Positions 12,812-21,895 of a stretch of DNA of 64,000 bases are shown piece after piece. The DNA lies in NCBI RefSeq assembly GCF_001425165.1, contig NZ_LMDU01000015.1, forward strand, positions 1-64,000, read 5' to 3'. Each line of letters begins with the position of its first letter. Position 1 is the stretch's first letter. The position numbers were made by a program, and so were the translations under genes. The DNA comes from Pelomonas sp. Root405 (GTDB lineage: Bacteria; Pseudomonadota; Gammaproteobacteria; Burkholderiales; Burkholderiaceae_C). The notes under the pieces were generated by a model. It made no database searches, had not been told where the DNA came from, and saw only the letters and a program-made list of their open reading frames with translations.

Positions 12812-14013
12812 GGCTGCAGCGCCCAGCGGCCCATCAGTGCGCGTTCTTCGTCGGTCATGGCGGTCGCATTGTTCAACGGCATCGCGCGTTGCACGACAAC
12901 CTGCTGGTAGATGGACGCCTTTTGGCTGGTCAGCGCCTCGGCGGAGTCCAGCCGCACACCCTTCTGCGCCACTTCGCCGGTGTGGCAGGCCAGACAGCGC
13001 TGGCCGGCGATGGCCTGGACCTGCGCCAGCGACACCGGCGCGATGGCCGCGGCTGCCGGCTGCGGCTTGGGCGACATCCACACGACCAGCCCGGCCAGCA
13101 GAGCCAACGCCAGCACCACCGCGCCCCAGCTGTTGACGCCCTTGTGCCGCTTGACGAAGAACACGCGGATGGCCACGCCCGCCGCCATCAGCACGCTCAG
13201 CACGACCCAGTTGTGCGGGTGCTGGTAGAGCATGCCGTAGTGGTTGCTCAACATGGCGATGAGCACCGGCATGCCGAACCATGTGTTGTGCACGCTGCGC
13301 TGCTTGCCGCGCTGGCCGTGGATGGGGTCGGGCTTCTGGCCGGCGCGCATCTGCGCGATGACCTTCTTCTGGCCCGGGATGATCCAGTGCGCCACGTTGG
13401 CCGTCATCATGGTCGCCAGCGTCGCGCCGACGATCAGGAAGGCCGCCCGGCCGGCGAACAGCTGGCAGGCCAGCCAGCTCTCCAGCACGACGAAGGCCGC
13501 CACGACCGCGAGCACGCGGCCGTCGTTGCCGATCTGCCCATCCTTGGTGCGGCCGAGCGCCTGGCAGGTGATGTCGTACACCGCCGAGCCCACGACCAGA
13601 AAGCCGAGCGCCGCCGCCACCGCCTGCCAAGGCGCGCCCCAGGCATGCACGCGCGGGTCGATCAGCATCTGGCTGGCGTTGCACAGGTAGAGCACGACGA
13701 ACAGCGCCATGCCGCTCATCCACGTCCAGTAGCTCTCCCAGTAGAACCAGTGCAAATCCTTGGGCAGGTTGCCGGGCGCCACCAGGTACTTTTGCGGGTT
13801 GTAGAAGCCGCCGCCATGCACGGCCCAAAGCTCGCCATCCACGCCCTTGGCCTTGAGGTCGTCGGCGGTCGGCTTGACGAGGTGGTTGTCCAGCCAGACG
13901 AAGTAGAAGGACGCGCCGATCCAGGCGATGACGGTGATGACGTGCAGCCAGCGCAGCAGCAGGCTGGCCCAGTCGAGCAGATAGATGTCCATGAAGCGGT
14001 GGTGTTCTGGCAT
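12808..14013 (-). CDS. puuD: Urate hydroxylase PuuD (membrane, cytochrome c-fused)
   Basis: A 401-residue integral membrane protein with eight predicted helices (N-terminal LLRWLHVITVIAWIGASFYF) and a C-terminal cytochrome c domain with a single haem motif CLACH (Cys340-His344). PuuD oxidises urate to 5-hydroxyisourate and passes electrons to the respiratory chain instead of making hydrogen peroxide. The ATG at 14013 is preferred because GGTGGGG lies just before it; the internal ATG at 13992 lacks a ribosome-binding site. The gene is divergent from the solute-binding gene at 14150 and leads the puuD-ttuD operon. Confidence 0.93.
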   Translation of the reverse strand: MPEHHRFMDIYLLDWASLLLRWLHVITVIAWIGASFYFVWLDNHLVKPTADDLKAKGVDGELWAVHGGGFYNPQKYLVAPGNLPKDLHWFYWESYWTWMSGMALFVVLYLCNASQMLIDPRVHAWGAPWQAVAAALGFLVVGSAVYDITCQALGRTKDGQIGNDGRVLAVVAAFVVLESWLACQLFAGRAAFLIVGATLATMMTANVAHWIIPGQKKVIAQMRAGQKPDPIHGQRGKQRSVHNTWFGMPVLIAMLSNHYGMLYQHPHNWVVLSVLMAAGVAIRVFFVKRHKGVNSWGAVVLALALLAGLVVWMSPKPQPAAAAIAPVSLAQVQAIAGQRCLACHTGEVAQKGVRLDSAEALTSQKASIYQQVVVQRAMPLNNATAMTDEERALMGRWALQP

Positions 14014-14149
14014 GGCCCCACCACGGCGGGTGCTGTGGGGCCCGAGGTCGCGTCCGCGAGCCCTGGACCGGGCCCGACACCGCTGCGACTGGCGGCGAGT
14101 GTATGCAGCCGACCGTCGCCCGGAAGCGACGCGCCCCCACAATCAGGCC

Positions 14150-14965
14150 ATGACCGCCCGCCCCGCCCTGAGCCTCCTGCTCGGCCTTGCCATCGCGCTG
14201 CCGTCTTCGGTCGCCAGTGCCGACGAGCCGGGCGTGGTGCGCATCGCCACCAATGTGGAGCGCAGCTATTTCCCGCCAGCGGAGGCGCTGTTGCGCAAGG
14301 CCTATGCCAGCCTGGGCCTGCAGGTGGAGTTCCTGCCCTGGCCGCTGCCACGCACCCAGCAGGCGCTGCGCGCCGGCCAGATCGACGGCGTGGCGATGCG
14401 GGTGGAGGCCTTCTTCGAGCAGACGCCGCAGGTACGCAAGGTGGATGTGGCGCTGCTGCAGCTGCATGTCTACGCGTTTGCCCGGCCACCCTGCCCCCAG
14501 TCGCTGCCGGCCGGCGATCTCGACCACCGCCGCGCCAGCTACCAGCGCGGCATGGTGGCGGTGGAGACGCTGCTACCGGAGGGCTCGCGCCTGCCGGCCA
14601 ACACGCCCAGCGACGCCTTCCTCAACCTCAGCACCGGCGCAGCCGACTACGCACTGATGCTGACGACGCCGTGGATGGCCGGCATGCCGGTGGACACGCG
14701 CCAGGGCACCCTGTGCCGCATCGCCACGCCGCTGAGCCGCGCGACCCTCTTCCACGGCGTGCACGAGTCGCGGGCCGAGCTCGTCGCGCCGCTGGAGCAG
14801 GCCCTGCGCGCCATGAACGACCGCGGGGAAATCGAGCAGGCCTGGCTGGCCTACGAACGCGAGATCGCCGCGCAGAACAAGCGGCTGCAGGCCCAGCCCG
14901 GCCGCAGCCTCACGTTGACGCCAGCGGCAACGCCAGGATCTGCGCCAACACAGCCACCGCGATGA
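14150..14965 (+). CDS. Periplasmic solute-binding (family 3-like) protein
   Basis: A 271-residue protein with a signal peptide (LSLLLGLAIALPSSVASADE) and a type 3 amino-acid-binding-like fold: VVRIATNVERSYFPPAEALLRKAY, then a domain crossover at RAGQIDGVAMRVE. No permease or ATPase is adjacent, so it may be a sensor-like or orphan binding protein rather than part of an importer. The C-terminal tail (about 245-271) is Pro/Thr/Ala-rich and its last 56 bases overlap the convergent xdhC gene. Position inside the purine island hints at a purine-related or nitrogenous ligand, but this is inference. Confidence 0.7.
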   Translation: MTARPALSLLLGLAIALPSSVASADEPGVVRIATNVERSYFPPAEALLRKAYASLGLQVEFLPWPLPRTQQALRAGQIDGVAMRVEAFFEQTPQVRKVDVALLQLHVYAFARPPCPQSLPAGDLDHRRASYQRGMVAVETLLPEGSRLPANTPSDAFLNLSTGAADYALMLTTPWMAGMPVDTRQGTLCRIATPLSRATLFHGVHESRAELVAPLEQALRAMNDRGEIEQAWLAYEREIAAQNKRLQAQPGRSLTLTPAATPGSAPTQPPR

Positions 14966-16032: not shown

Positions 16033-16064
16033 GAAGTCTCCGTTGATTGATGCAAAGTGTAGGG

Positions 16065-17030
16065 ATGAGCACAGCGCAACAGCCCCGGTATCCCCGTGAC
16101 CTCGTCGGCTACGGCGAGCACCCGCCGCATGCGCAGTGGCCCGGCGGTGCCCGCATCGCGGTGCAGTTCGTTCTCAACTACGAAGAGGGCGGCGAGAACT
16201 CCGTGCTGCATGGCGACGCCGGCAGCGAGCAGTTCCTGTCTGAGATGGCCAACCCGCCGAGCTTTGCGGCGCGTCATCTCAGCATGGAAGGCATCTATGA
16301 GTACGGCTCACGCGTCGGCGTATGGCGGCTGTTGAAGGAGTTCGAGCAGCGCGCGCTGCCGCTGACCGTTTTCGGCGTCGGCATGGCGCTAGAGCGGCAC
16401 CCGGACGTCACCCAGGCCTTCGTCGAACTCGACCACGAGATCGCCTCGCACGGCTGGCGCTGGGTGCACTACCAGAACGTCGACGAGGACACCGAGCGCG
16501 CCCACATAGCGCAGGCCATGGCCTCGCTGAAACGCCTGACGCTGGGCCGGGAGCCGCACGGCCTGGGCTGGTACACCGGCCGCGACAGCCCGAACACCCG
16601 CCGCCTGGCGGCGGACTTCGGCGGCTTCGAGTACGACAGCGACTACTACGGCGACGACCTGCCCTTCTGGCTGCAGGTCAGGAAGACCAACGGCGAGTTG
16701 GCACCTCATCTCGTCGTGCCCTACACGCTCGACTGCAACGACATGCGCTTCGCGCTGCCGCAGGGTTTCAGCCATGGCGAGCCGTTCTTCGAATATTTGA
16801 AGGATTCCTTCGACGTGCTCTATGCCGAGGGGGGAGACAGCCCGAAGATGATGAGCATCGGCATGCACTGCCGGCTGCTCGGCCGCCCGGGGCGTCTGCG
16901 CGCGCTGCAGAAGTTCCTGGACCACATCGAGGCGCATGACCGCGTCTGGGTGTGCCGGCGGCTCGACATTGCGCGGCACTGGAAAGCCGTTCACCCCTTT
17001 GACGCCCGCACGGCCTTTGTCTGGGAATGA
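16065..17030 (+). CDS. puuE: Allantoinase PuuE (NodB-like)
   Basis: A 321-residue metal-independent allantoinase of the polysaccharide-deacetylase (NodB) fold, unrelated to classical AllB. The N-terminus [20 protein letters not shown] and [12 protein letters not shown] are near-invariant in PuuE. It opens allantoin to allantoate. The start at 16065 gives the usual length; an ATG at 16050 in frame would add five residues. The ribosome-binding site is unclear for either. It overlaps the next gene by 4 bases (ATGA), so the UraD-AllC fusion is translationally coupled. Confidence 0.95.
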
Positions 17031-19282
17031 TGAAACTCGAAGAACTGAACAGCGCCAGCGCCAGCGACTTCGTCGCGCTGCTGGACGGCACCTATGAACA
17101 TTCGCCCTGGATCGCCGAACGCGCCGCGGCGGCGCGGCCGTTCGCATCGCTGGCCGCACTGAAGGTCGCGCTGGCCCGCGTCGTGCGCGAGGCCAGCGTC
17201 GACGAACAGCTGTGGCTGATCCGCGCCCACCCGGAGCTGGCCGGCAAGGCCGCCATCGCCGGCACGCTGACCGCCGAATCGACGAATGAGCAACAGAAGG
17301 CCGGGCTGACCGCCTGCACGGCCGAGGAGTTCGCCAAGCTGCAAAAGCTGAATGCCGACTACAACGCGCGCTTCGGCTGGCCCTTCATCCTGGCCGTGCG
17401 CGGCCCGCGCGGCACCGGCTTCACCCGTGCCGAGATCATCGCCACCTTCGAGCGCCGGCTGCGCGCCCACCCAGACGTGGAACGCGCCGAGTGCCTGCGC
17501 CAGATCCACCGCATCGCCGAGATCCGGCTCAATGACAAGTTCGGCGTGCGGCCCGAGCTGGGCGAACAGCTGTGGGACTGGGCCGCCGCACTGGCCGTGC
17601 ACAGCGACACCGAAGAGTTCCTGACCTGCACCTACGCCACGCCCGCACACACAGCGGTCGCCGAGCAGTTGATGGACTGGATGCGCGATTGCGGCTGCGA
17701 CGAAGTCAGCCGCGACGCCGTCGGCAATGTCGTCGGCGTCTACAAGGGCACCGGAGACAAGCGCTTGCTGACCGGCAGCCACTACGACACCGTGCGCCGC
17801 GCCGGCCGCTTCGACGGGCGGCTGGGCATCTTTGTGCCGATGCTCTCCGTGCGCGAACTGCACCGCGCCGGCCAGCGCCTGCCGTTCGACCTCGAAGTCG
17901 TCGGCTTCTCCGAGGAAGAGGGCCAGCGCTTCCCCGCCGACTTCCTCGGCTCCACCGCACTGATCGGCGCCTTCCAGCCGGGCTGGTTGGACCAAACCGA
18001 TGCGGCCGGCATCACGCTGCGCGACGCGATGCAGGCGACCGGCCTGCCTGGCACGATGGAGGCCATCTCGGGCTGCAAGCGCGACCCGTCGCGCTACCTC
18101 GGCTTCGTCGAAGTGCACATCGAGCAAGGCCCGGTGCTCGACAGCCTGGACCTGCCACTGGGCATCGTCACGTCCATCAACGGCAGTCGCCGCTACACCG
18201 GCGAGATCGTCGGCCTGGCGAGCCACGCCGGCACCACGCCCATGGGCCAGCGCCGCGACGCGGCGGCCGGCGTCGCCGAGCTGATCCTGTTCTGCGAGGA
18301 ACGCGCCGCCCAGGTGCCCGACGTCGTCGGCACCGTCGGCATGTTGGAGGTGCCCTCGGGTTCCATCAACGTCATCCCCGGCCGTTGCCGCTTCAGCCTG
18401 GACCTGCGCGCAACGGCTGACGCAGCCCGCGACGCGTTGGATGCTGATGTGCGCGCCCGGCTCGACGAGATCTGCCAGCGCCGTGGGCTGAGCTTCACGC
18501 TGCAGCCAACGCTCGCTGCGAATGCCGCGCCGAGCGATGCGGCCTGGCAGTCGCGCTGGGAAGCTGCGGTGACTGAACTCGGCCTGCCAATCCACCGCCT
18601 GCCCTCGGGTGCCGGCCATGACGCGATGAAACTGCACGAGCTGCTGCCCCAGGCCATGCTCTTCGTGCGCGGCGGCAATGGCGGCATCAGCCACAACCCG
18701 CTGGAGTCGGTGACGGTGGATGACGCAGAGCTGGCCGTGCAGGCCTTTCAGCAGCTGCTGGAAACATGCGCCGCCGCAGCCCGAACGACCGTAGAGCTGG
18801 TCGCCATGCTGCCCGCGCATCGCGAGGCCTTCCACGCTGGGCGCGAACTGCTCGCGGCACTGCTTCAGGCGCGCCTGCCAGACGGCTGGCCGCAGTTTCC
18901 TGAGGCCTTCGATCCGTCCCTGCCCGACATGGGTGCCGAGTGGCCAGCCTGCTTCTTCATCGACCGCGCGGTGGGCTGCGTAGTCGGCAACGGCGGTTTC
19001 ACCGGGCCACCGGATGCCGAAGGCCGCGTCGAGATCGGCTACGAAATCGCGCCAGCCTACCGTGGCCGTGGCTATGCGACGAAAGCTGCTCAAGCCCTGG
19101 TCGCCTTGGCTCGTGCACGGCCGGTTGTCCGCGCTGTCCAGGCGCACACGCTGGCCGAGACAAACGCCTCGAATGGCGTGCTGCGCAAGCTCGGCATGCA
19201 GTTCATCGCCGAGCTGCCGAACGAGGAAGTCGGCAAGGTATGGCTGTGGCGCCTGGACCTTCCAACACCGACATCGACATGA
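17027..19282 (+). CDS. UraD-AllC-GNAT trifunctional fusion
   Basis: A single 751-residue frame with three domains. Residues 1-170 are OHCU decarboxylase (UraD): RAHPEL (66-71, catalytic His68) and STNEQQKAGL (85-94). Residues 175-580 are allantoate amidohydrolase (AllC, M20): GSHYDTV (250-256), FDG (262-264), EEEGQRF (296-302), HIEQGP (364-369), ASHAGTTPM (398-406), GAGHDA (528-533) and ISHNPLE (554-560); metal ligands appear intact. Residues about 590-751 are a GNAT acetyltransferase with acetyl-CoA loop YRGRGYAT (678-685). UraD makes S-allantoin and AllC deamidates allantoate, with PuuE acting between them. UraD-AllC fusions are, as I recall, known in this order; the GNAT tail is the unusual part and its substrate is unknown. 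No stop or frameshift is seen at the junctions. Confidence 0.92.
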   Translation: MMKLEELNSASASDFVALLDGTYEHSPWIAERAAAARPFASLAALKVALARVVREASVDEQLWLIRAHPELAGKAAIAGTLTAESTNEQQKAGLTACTAEEFAKLQKLNADYNARFGWPFILAVRGPRGTGFTRAEIIATFERRLRAHPDVERAECLRQIHRIAEIRLNDKFGVRPELGEQLWDWAAALAVHSDTEEFLTCTYATPAHTAVAEQLMDWMRDCGCDEVSRDAVGNVVGVYKGTGDKRLLTGSHYDTVRRAGRFDGRLGIFVPMLSVRELHRAGQRLPFDLEVVGFSEEEGQRFPADFLGSTALIGAFQPGWLDQTDAAGITLRDAMQATGLPGTMEAISGCKRDPSRYLGFVEVHIEQGPVLDSLDLPLGIVTSINGSRRYTGEIVGLASHAGTTPMGQRRDAAAGVAELILFCEERAAQVPDVVGTVGMLEVPSGSINVIPGRCRFSLDLRATADAARDALDADVRARLDEICQRRGLSFTLQPTLAANAAPSDAAWQSRWEAAVTELGLPIHRLPSGAGHDAMKLHELLPQAMLFVRGGNGGISHNPLESVTVDDAELAVQAFQQLLETCAAAARTTVELVAMLPAHREAFHAGRELLAALLQARLPDGWPQFPEAFDPSLPDMGAEWPACFFIDRAVGCVVGNGGFTGPPDAEGRVEIGYEIAPAYRGRGYATKAAQALVALARARPVVRAVQAHTLAETNASNGVLRKLGMQFIAELPNEEVGKVWLWRLDLPTPTST

Positions 19283-20505
19283 CCACCTCTTCTCCAGACC
19301 GTTGGATTGCAGCCAACTTCGACGACGAAGTTCGTTTCCTACAGCAACTCGTCCGCATCCCCACCGACACACCGCCCGGCAACAACGCGCCGCATGCCGA
19401 GTGCACGGCTGAGCTGCTGGCCGAACTTGGCTTCACGGTGGAGATGCACGTCGTTCCCGCCGCCGACGTGCAGGCCGCCGGCATGCAGTCCATCACCAAC
19501 CTCATCGTCCGCCACCGCTTCAGTGAAGGCGGCCCGACGATTGCGCTGAATGCGCATGGCGACGTGGTGCCGCCCGGTGAAGGCTGGACCTATGGCCCAT
19601 ACTCGGCCGACGTCGTCGACGGCAAGCTGTATGGCCGTGCGTCGGCCGTCAGCAAGAGCGACTTCGCGACCTACGCGTTTGCGCTGCTGGCGCTGAAGAA
19701 CTCCGGGTTGCCGCTGAAGGGCGCCGTCGAGCTGCATTTCACTTACGACGAGGAGTTCGGCGGTGAACTTGGCCCCGGCTGGCTGCTGAAGCAAGGTCTG
19801 ACGAAACCCGACTACCTGATCGCAGCCGGTTTCAGCTACCAGGTCGTCACGGCCCACAACGGCTGCCTGCAAATGGAAGTGACGCTGCACGGCCTGGCCT
19901 CGCATGCGGCATACCCGAGCACGGGCATCGATGCGCTGCAGGCGGCAACGAAGCTGCTGACGGCGCTTTACGCCCACAACGACGTGCTGAAGACGCGCCG
20001 TTCCGAGGTGGCCGGCATCACCCACCCCTACCTGAATGTCGGCCGCATCGAGGGCGGATCCAACACCAATGTCGTGCCGGGCAAGGTGGTCATCAAGCTC
20101 GACCGCCGCATGATTCCCGAGGAGGACCCGGCGGCTGTCGAGGCCGAGGTGCGCGCGCTGATCGAGCGCACGGTCGCGCAGAGCGCGGGCATCAAGCTCG
20201 ACATCAAGCGCCTGCTGCTGGCCGATTCGATGAAGCCGCTGCCGGGCGCCGCGCCGCTGGTGGCCGCGCTGCAAAAGCATGGCCAGGCCATCTTTGGCGA
20301 AGAGATCCCGACCTCCGGCACGCCGCTCTACACCGACGTGCGCCTGTACACGGCGCATGGCATCCCGGCCGCCATCTACGGCGCCGGGCCGCGCACCGTG
20401 CTGGAGAGCAATGCCAAGCGCGCCGACGAGCACCTGGTGCTGGACGACCTGAAGCGGGCGACCCAGGTCGTGGCGCGCACGCTTGCCGAGATGCTTGCGA
20501 TCTAG
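19279..20505 (+). CDS. M20 family metallohydrolase (ArgE/DapE-like)
   Basis: A 408-residue M20 peptidase/deacylase with metal-site motifs NAHGDVVPPGEGW (near 93-105), YGRASAVSKSDFA, TYDEEFGGELGP and a dimerisation domain containing GLASHAAYPSTGIDA. The ATG overlaps the fusion gene's stop by 4 bases, tying it to the ureide operon. It is distinct from AllC and closer to ArgE/DapE deacylases. A role on a ureide breakdown product such as ureidoglycolate or an acylated intermediate made by the GNAT domain is possible, but is inference from position only. Confidence 0.82.
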   Translation: MTTSSPDRWIAANFDDEVRFLQQLVRIPTDTPPGNNAPHAECTAELLAELGFTVEMHVVPAADVQAAGMQSITNLIVRHRFSEGGPTIALNAHGDVVPPGEGWTYGPYSADVVDGKLYGRASAVSKSDFATYAFALLALKNSGLPLKGAVELHFTYDEEFGGELGPGWLLKQGLTKPDYLIAAGFSYQVVTAHNGCLQMEVTLHGLASHAAYPSTGIDALQAATKLLTALYAHNDVLKTRRSEVAGITHPYLNVGRIEGGSNTNVVPGKVVIKLDRRMIPEEDPAAVEAEVRALIERTVAQSAGIKLDIKRLLLADSMKPLPGAAPLVAALQKHGQAIFGEEIPTSGTPLYTDVRLYTAHGIPAAIYGAGPRTVLESNAKRADEHLVLDDLKRATQVVARTLAEMLAI

Positions 20506-20550: not shown

Positions 20551-20566
20551 GAACAGCAGGGTCGTG

Positions 20567-21895
20567 ATGGCTGAACTGACGACGGAACACCATCTCGTAC
20601 TTGGCGCACTGGCGGCACGCGGCTTGCTGTCGTCGCCACAGATGCAAGCCATCACTGGCAAAAGCCAGCCCACGCTGTCGCGCATCCTGGCCGACCTGGG
20701 CAGCCGGGTGGTGGCGTTGGGTCAGGCGCGTTCCGCTCGGTACGGCCTGTCTCAATCCATTCACGGCACACCTTCGCAGCAACCCGTTCTGCTGACACTT
20801 CAAAGCGGTGAGACCCGCCGCATCGGCCAGCTCACGCTGCTGGTGAGCGACACCCTGCACCTGGGCGGCCCGGGCGTCAGCGTTGCCACCCAGGGCGAGT
20901 TGCCCTGGCTGCTGTCGCCGCTGGTGGCACAGGGTTTTCTCGGCCGGCTGCTGGCACAGCGGCTGGCCGCACCGGGCATTTCGACCGACCCGGCGGCCTG
21001 GACGCTGGAGACGCAGTTGTTTGCCGCACTCCACCTGCACGATGGCAGCGGTGCATTGAGCTTGGGCGAGCCGCAGCCCGGCACCGCGCTGCCGGCACTG
21101 CCCGCATCGCCCACAGCACTGGCGGCGGCGCTGGATGCGCTGGCAGACGACGTGGCGGGCACGCTGCCGGCGGGCTCGTCAGCAGGCGGCGAGCAGCCCA
21201 AGCTGCTGGCGCGGCAGGAGGGTGGCGGGCCGCTGCTGGTGAAGTTCACCCCGCCACGCGGCACGCCCTTCGGCGAGCGTTGGCACGACCTGCTGCACGC
21301 CGAGCACCTGGCACTGCGCACGTTGGCCGCGCACGGCGTGGCGGTGGCGGCCAGCCGCATCGTGGCGAGCCCGCGTCGCACGTATCTGCTCAGCGAGCGC
21401 TTCGACCGTCTGGGCGACCACGGCCGGCGCCATGCCGTGGCCATCGCAGCAGCACATGCCGGCTTTCTGCCAGGCGGCTACTGGAACTGGCCACGCAGCG
21501 CGCAAGGCCTGGCCGGGCAGCGCCGGCTGTCGTCGCTGGACGCCGCCCGCGCGCAAGCGCTGTGGGACTTTGGCCGGCTCATCGGCAACACCGACATGCA
21601 CGGCGGCAATCTCGCGCTGTGGGTCGACGGTGAAGACCTGACCGGGCTGCTGAAAGGCCGCTTCACGCTGGCCCCGGTGTACGACATGCTGCCGATGCGC
21701 TGGCGGCCGGATGCCACGCTGGGCTGTGCGGCGGACTACAGCGCCTTCGAGCCCGACGCGCTGGCCCGCAGTGGCGGCGCCCGCGAGCCGGCCCAGGCGT
21801 TCTGGCATGCGCTGGCCGGCAGTGCCGATGTCAGCACCACACTGCGCGAGGTGGCCTCGGAGATGGCCGGCCGCCTGGCCAGTTCAGCGCGCTGA
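20567..21895 (+). CDS. yjjJ: HipA-family kinase, YjjJ type, with N-terminal HTH
   Basis: A 442-residue protein with an N-terminal winged-helix-like segment (residues 5-60, SSPQMQAITGKSQPTLSRIL) joined to a HipA kinase domain. Kinase features are SSAGGEQPK (204-212, the loop with the autophosphorylated serine region), VKF with Lys226, the catalytic GNTDMHGGN (340-348) and YDMLPMRW (372-379). HipA kinases phosphorylate aminoacyl-tRNA synthetases and arrest growth; YjjJ-type proteins lack a separate HipB and carry their own HTH. The ATG at 20567 is favoured by GCAGGG upstream; a GTG lies directly before it. The end overlaps the convergent neighbour by 12 bases. Confidence 0.88.
   Translation: MAELTTEHHLVLGALAARGLLSSPQMQAITGKSQPTLSRILADLGSRVVALGQARSARYGLSQSIHGTPSQQPVLLTLQSGETRRIGQLTLLVSDTLHLGGPGVSVATQGELPWLLSPLVAQGFLGRLLAQRLAAPGISTDPAAWTLETQLFAALHLHDGSGALSLGEPQPGTALPALPASPTALAAALDALADDVAGTLPAGSSAGGEQPKLLARQEGGGPLLVKFTPPRGTPFGERWHDLLHAEHLALRTLAAHGVAVAASRIVASPRRTYLLSERFDRLGDHGRRHAVAIAAAHAGFLPGGYWNWPRSAQGLAGQRRLSSLDAARAQALWDFGRLIGNTDMHGGNLALWVDGEDLTGLLKGRFTLAPVYDMLPMRWRPDATLGCAADYSAFEPDALARSGGAREPAQAFWHALAGSADVSTTLREVASEMAGRLASSAR

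Follow-up and report, generated by a model that had tools for sequence, protein, structure and literature searches.

An in-frame GNAT acetyltransferase domain behind a UraD–AllC fusion in Pelomonas sp. Root405, probably a horizontally acquired passenger

The closest described counterpart of the protein studied here is the family modelled as NF010373 (PRK13799), named "unknown domain/N-carbamoyl-L-amino acid hydrolase fusion protein", which has the same two-domain architecture as residues 2 to 581 of our protein. The match pairs these residues with positions 3 to 586 of the 591 in the model at 888.4 bits, misses the curated cut-off of 1087, and leaves the GNAT part outside. Because all three relatives tested (of the 80 kept) also fell short, with 892.7, 1017.4, and 1065 bits, the shortfall is no peculiarity of our protein. 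Two further models, TIGR03164 (OHCU decarboxylase) and TIGR01879 (hydantoinase/carbamoylase family amidase), were both passed, with 181.6 bits against 96.25 and 298.5 against 204, respectively. A literature search over titles and the starts of abstracts returned no description of a UraD–AllC–GNAT fusion.

The window, meaning the whole 64,000-nucleotide stretch that was analysed, lies on contig NZ_LMDU01000015.1 of Pelomonas sp. Root405, and the region of interest is laid out as follows.

16047-17030, + strand: PuuE-type allantoinase frame (our assignment), upstream, overlapping the start of the fusion
17027-19282, + strand: three-domain frame UraD–AllC–GNAT, 751 aa, a single open frame
17027-17536, + strand: UraD (OHCU decarboxylase) domain, residues 1-170 (PF09349, TIGR03164)
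17537-18778, + strand: AllC-like M20 amidohydrolase domain, residues 171-584 (PF01546, TIGR01879, and motifs)
18779-19282, + strand: GNAT acetyltransferase domain, residues 585-751 plus the stop codon (PF13302 / PF00583)
19279-20505, + strand: M20 ArgE/DapE-like hydrolase, its start overlapping the GNAT stop (ATGA); TIGR01910, 221.2 bits, cut-off 217.6

The three-domain frame is confirmed as present in the sequence as assembled and is no product of chance; its junction is known from one assembly, the window and genome G000 being the same. Pfam matches above their cut-offs run along the whole frame, with OHCU_decarbox at residues 8-169 (1.4e-46), Peptidase_M20 at 249-579 (9.9e-18), Acetyltransf_3 at 643-725 (2.3e-14), and Acetyltransf_1 at 621-724 (4.7e-12). 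These matches bear out the preliminary description, which had read three domains with intact motifs in one frame, except that we place the junction slightly earlier, at about residue 584/585 instead of 590.

In the UraD part, where the family model is passed, H68, P69, S85, E88, Q89, and R167, which we take to be the catalytic residues, are present and invariant in 80/80 relatives. The same holds in the M20 part for H252, D263, E297/E298, H364, and H531, presumably the metal site, an intact site as expected of AllC. The two equivalog models for AllC were missed (TIGR03176, 210.9 against 597.75; NF006775, 445.3 against 479), the latter also by the relatives L033, L082, and L100. Since TIGR03176 is not reached, the assignment of allantoate as the putative substrate rests on context, namely the UraD fusion and the neighboring genes. 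The 16047-17030 frame is, from its sequence and context, presumably a PuuE-type allantoinase, and we agree with the earlier view that UraD and AllC are the steps flanking allantoinase.

The UraD–AllC architecture itself is common. A scan of the collection gave at least 578 UraD–AllC relatives, and in the best 80, which were kept (L032–L111), the fusion was found in every one. Their frames all end 21 to 31 residues past SHNPLE, the last AllC motif, and that of the window runs 191 residues past it. The query P0001 matched 326 of 399 family genomes, and among the matches listed, only the window's own extends past residue 614. Judged by these comparisons, the first ~584 residues are a two-domain UraD–AllC fusion of an ordinary Burkholderiales kind, already covered by NF010373. 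The M20 hydrolase follows UraD–AllC in 78 of the 80 relatives. This hydrolase is a candidate for a late ureide step, and our genome gave no match to the ureidoglycolate lyase family PF04115.

The additional C-terminal segment is GNAT-like at the level of sequence. GNAT enzymes carry the motif Q/RxxGxG/A, and YRGRGYAT begins at residue 678; the Pfam scores are 54.7 bits against 25.4 and 46.6 against 20.7. The GC content at the three codon positions (0.743/0.521/0.754) is coding-like, with a GC3 of 0.754 that lies below those of AllC (0.879) and M20 (0.85). The nearest solved sequence, PA3944 (6edd), matches only part of the 166-residue segment (residues 81-140, E 3.9e-05), and a comparison with the NCBIfam models gave nothing at E<=0.001. 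Structure predictions for this part were of low confidence, with pLDDT below 50 over 591-751 in the full chain and a mean of 48.6 for the segment alone.

Searched on its own, as had been proposed earlier, the GNAT segment was carried by none of the 80 kept UraD–AllC relatives (tblastn, E<=1e-3, 111 loci). At E<=1e-6 none of the other 19 genomes of the genus gave a match, nor did a sample of 397 other genomes of the phylum at E<=1e-15, and in its own genome the segment matched only itself at E<=1e-3. Weak, generic matches appeared at 1e-3 in 18 of those 19 genomes, and matches at E<=0.001, mostly weak, in 65 of 199 relatives (own genome included). The best other match, 46% over residues 11–159, is a stand-alone 183-aa ORF in a genome of another family (G183). 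Plasmids gave matches in five records, the best at 40.6% in Tsukamurella, and the six pattern matches among viral contigs included no relative. Because it is missing from the 80 loci, has weak matches within the genus, and finds its best relative standing alone in another family, the GNAT gene looks horizontally acquired.

The place where the GNAT part lies is itself variable among close relatives, as the following feature records.

18738-19348, no strand: variable slot between AllC and M20; six close genomes, counting that of the window, show four unrelated inserts and two empty slots

AllC and M20 lie no more than 149 nt apart in 73 of 78 relatives, the exceptions being L033, L056, L073, L083, and L107; small ORFs were found in the slots of L033 and L056, and no clear ORF was seen in those of the other three. 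Five close relatives were compared (L033 and G008, whose contigs are equally long, being treated as one genome, and L032 and G018 likewise): three of them (L033/G008, L056, G006) each have a small ORF of their own in the slot, and in the other two (G012, G018) it is empty. In L033 the last AllC codons also differ, as if the insert had brought its own stop. Of the slot ORFs in these three relatives, the L056 one alone passes a Pfam cut-off, that of DUF7684, which occurs in 7 of 200 family genomes (5 over cut-off). The L033 slot protein has one weak match in 300 genomes of the order, and none of the four slot proteins matched a PADLOC defence model at E<=0.01.

Taken together, we consider it probable that a passenger GNAT, acquired horizontally, landed in this variable slot in frame with a normal Burkholderiales UraD–AllC bifunctional enzyme, that a three-domain polypeptide is made, and that the GNAT performs no ureide step. 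The acquired gene would have entered between AllC and the next operon gene, and the incoming DNA would have left no stop after AllC and put the GNAT in phase, giving a single chain. UraD and AllC would keep their ureide functions, as their motifs and context suggest, and the GNAT would act as an independent acetyltransferase with a putative amine substrate outside ureide breakdown. The "recent fusion" option of the preliminary description is thus the one the data favor, with the proviso that the join may be an accident or a one-letter reading error.

That proviso leads to the best-surviving rival, which concerns the junction.

18766-18794, + strand: junction; the ATG (18766) and the TAG (18792) both lie out of the fusion's frame

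Here AllC would end at the TAG and the GNAT would start at the ATG, as two genes overlapping by about 28 nt, and the join would come from a single-base error in sequencing or from a very recent indel of one base. Single-base changes were scanned from 18700 to 18829. When any one of the 23 positions 18769–18791, which include a CCC run, is taken out, two overlapping genes result, with the GNAT ATG at 18766 and an AllC tail of 28 residues, inside the 21-31 range of the 80 relatives. Because a single removal thus gives two ordinary genes and a normal AllC tail, this is a live rival. The earlier suspicion of a sequencing error near codon 580 gains substance to this extent, that one base would suffice. 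The other doubt raised there, that homologues might always have the GNAT gene separate, is nearly realized, for no second junction appeared in any other genome searched and the nearest GNAT relative is stand-alone. However, a start/stop pair of this kind may arise by chance in GC-rich DNA, and the two-gene pattern is not unique to those 23 positions. The same tail length results from removals at 18711–18736, 18755, and 18758, in some cases with GTG as the GNAT start; those in 18711–18736 would alter a larger share of the conserved AllC terminus. When a base was inserted instead, the AllC tail came to 5 or 65 residues, lengths that the 80 relatives do not show. The frame also has an internal ATG at 18806 (residue 594), which would lie in the first strand of the low-confidence GNAT model. 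Weighing these points, we regard the two-gene reading as possible but on balance unlikely. PMC3711429 notes that a frame transition observed a single time may stem from an error in sequencing or from a recent indel; the case there concerns frameshifts, whereas ours is an in-frame join, so it serves as an analogy only.

A functional three-domain enzyme, whose GNAT part would transfer acetyl groups to a ureide intermediate, such as ureidoglycine at its amine, or would regulate UraD/AllC, is very improbable: the in-frame join, the intact motifs in all three parts, the ArgE/DapE-like hydrolase coming next, and a genome without PF04115, which leaves room for a GNAT role in the late steps though it lends no support to one, speak for it, but the 80 relatives lack the GNAT, 78 of them with the M20 hydrolase conserved downstream, and the slots of three close relatives hold unrelated ORFs. 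No sign of a ureide acetyltransferase emerged in this analysis, and the earlier proposal of a three-domain architecture serving ureide breakdown is not supported: the two-domain fusion is common, and in the 80 kept relatives it goes without the GNAT. Taken at face value, the frame would imply an acetylation step in that pathway; the comparison makes such a step unlikely and so spares an annotation error.

Returning to the acquired passenger, the variable slot is perhaps the more interesting by-product. For an indel comparison, the 254-kb contig was set against L056, 206 kb of a 286-kb G006 contig, and a single complete contig from each of G008, G012, and G018. Among 36 gene-scale indel sites, the AllC–M20 slot has four unrelated insert families and every other site at most two. 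The rough Poisson chance of three further events is 0.0009–0.034, and 0.015–0.16 without L056 (230 to 60 assumed junctions). This excess is favored by the sampling, because G006 (aligned over 18 kb only) and L056 (which holds 15 kb only) align mainly around the slot; without both, on the widely aligned G008, G012, and G018, the number of insert families in the slot drops to two, a value shared by six other sites, and the chance is 0.16–0.49. The comparison suggests a hotspot but falls short of showing one. A more specific and rather doubtful version, which we offer tentatively, is that the AllC|M20 junction serves, in the Pelomonas/Roseateles cluster, as a micro-hotspot for the repeated uptake of single rare co-directional genes (insert stretches of ~490-600 bases), which may become welded onto the upstream enzyme; a mobile-element or attC signature was not found there. 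If so, the GNAT fusion would capture the birth of multidomain enzymes through such a site, and a real hotspot would offer a compact case of foreign single genes entering operons and becoming fused domains.

Integron cassettes were rejected as the direct slot mechanism, because no attC-like R''/R' box pair 40-160 nt apart was found in the four slots on either strand (strict box consensus). An integron-integrase model is passed in 9 of 20 same-genus genomes, G008 included (for instance L214, at G008:C29:210171-211115), and the match in the window's genome is partial and below the cut-off. The G012 contig carrying the slot has partial integron-integrase matches of its own (C2:37372-37790). Flanking repeats are short and imperfect; the one that spans the window's junction has 14 nt at 86% (18724–18737 and 18790–18803). 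No mechanism of insertion emerged from these comparisons.

Several side observations were made. The DUF7684 domain at L203:1504-1896 belongs to an open frame of 516 aa that runs on from a seemingly unrelated upstream protein, possibly another in-frame 3' join. At L004:1-1800, a related GNAT sits inside a 599-aa ORF behind a part that, from its look, we take to be a cupin, a possible second in-frame join. Downstream of the M20 hydrolase, a HipA_C-type gene (20564-21895; PF07804, 9e-21) is missing at the matching place in G008, G012, and L056. The frame 13985-14965 has a weak, sub-cut-off SBP_bac_3 match and lies mostly within a stretch of ~815 bases that is lacking in G008, G018, G006, and L056 and is replaced by other DNA in G012.
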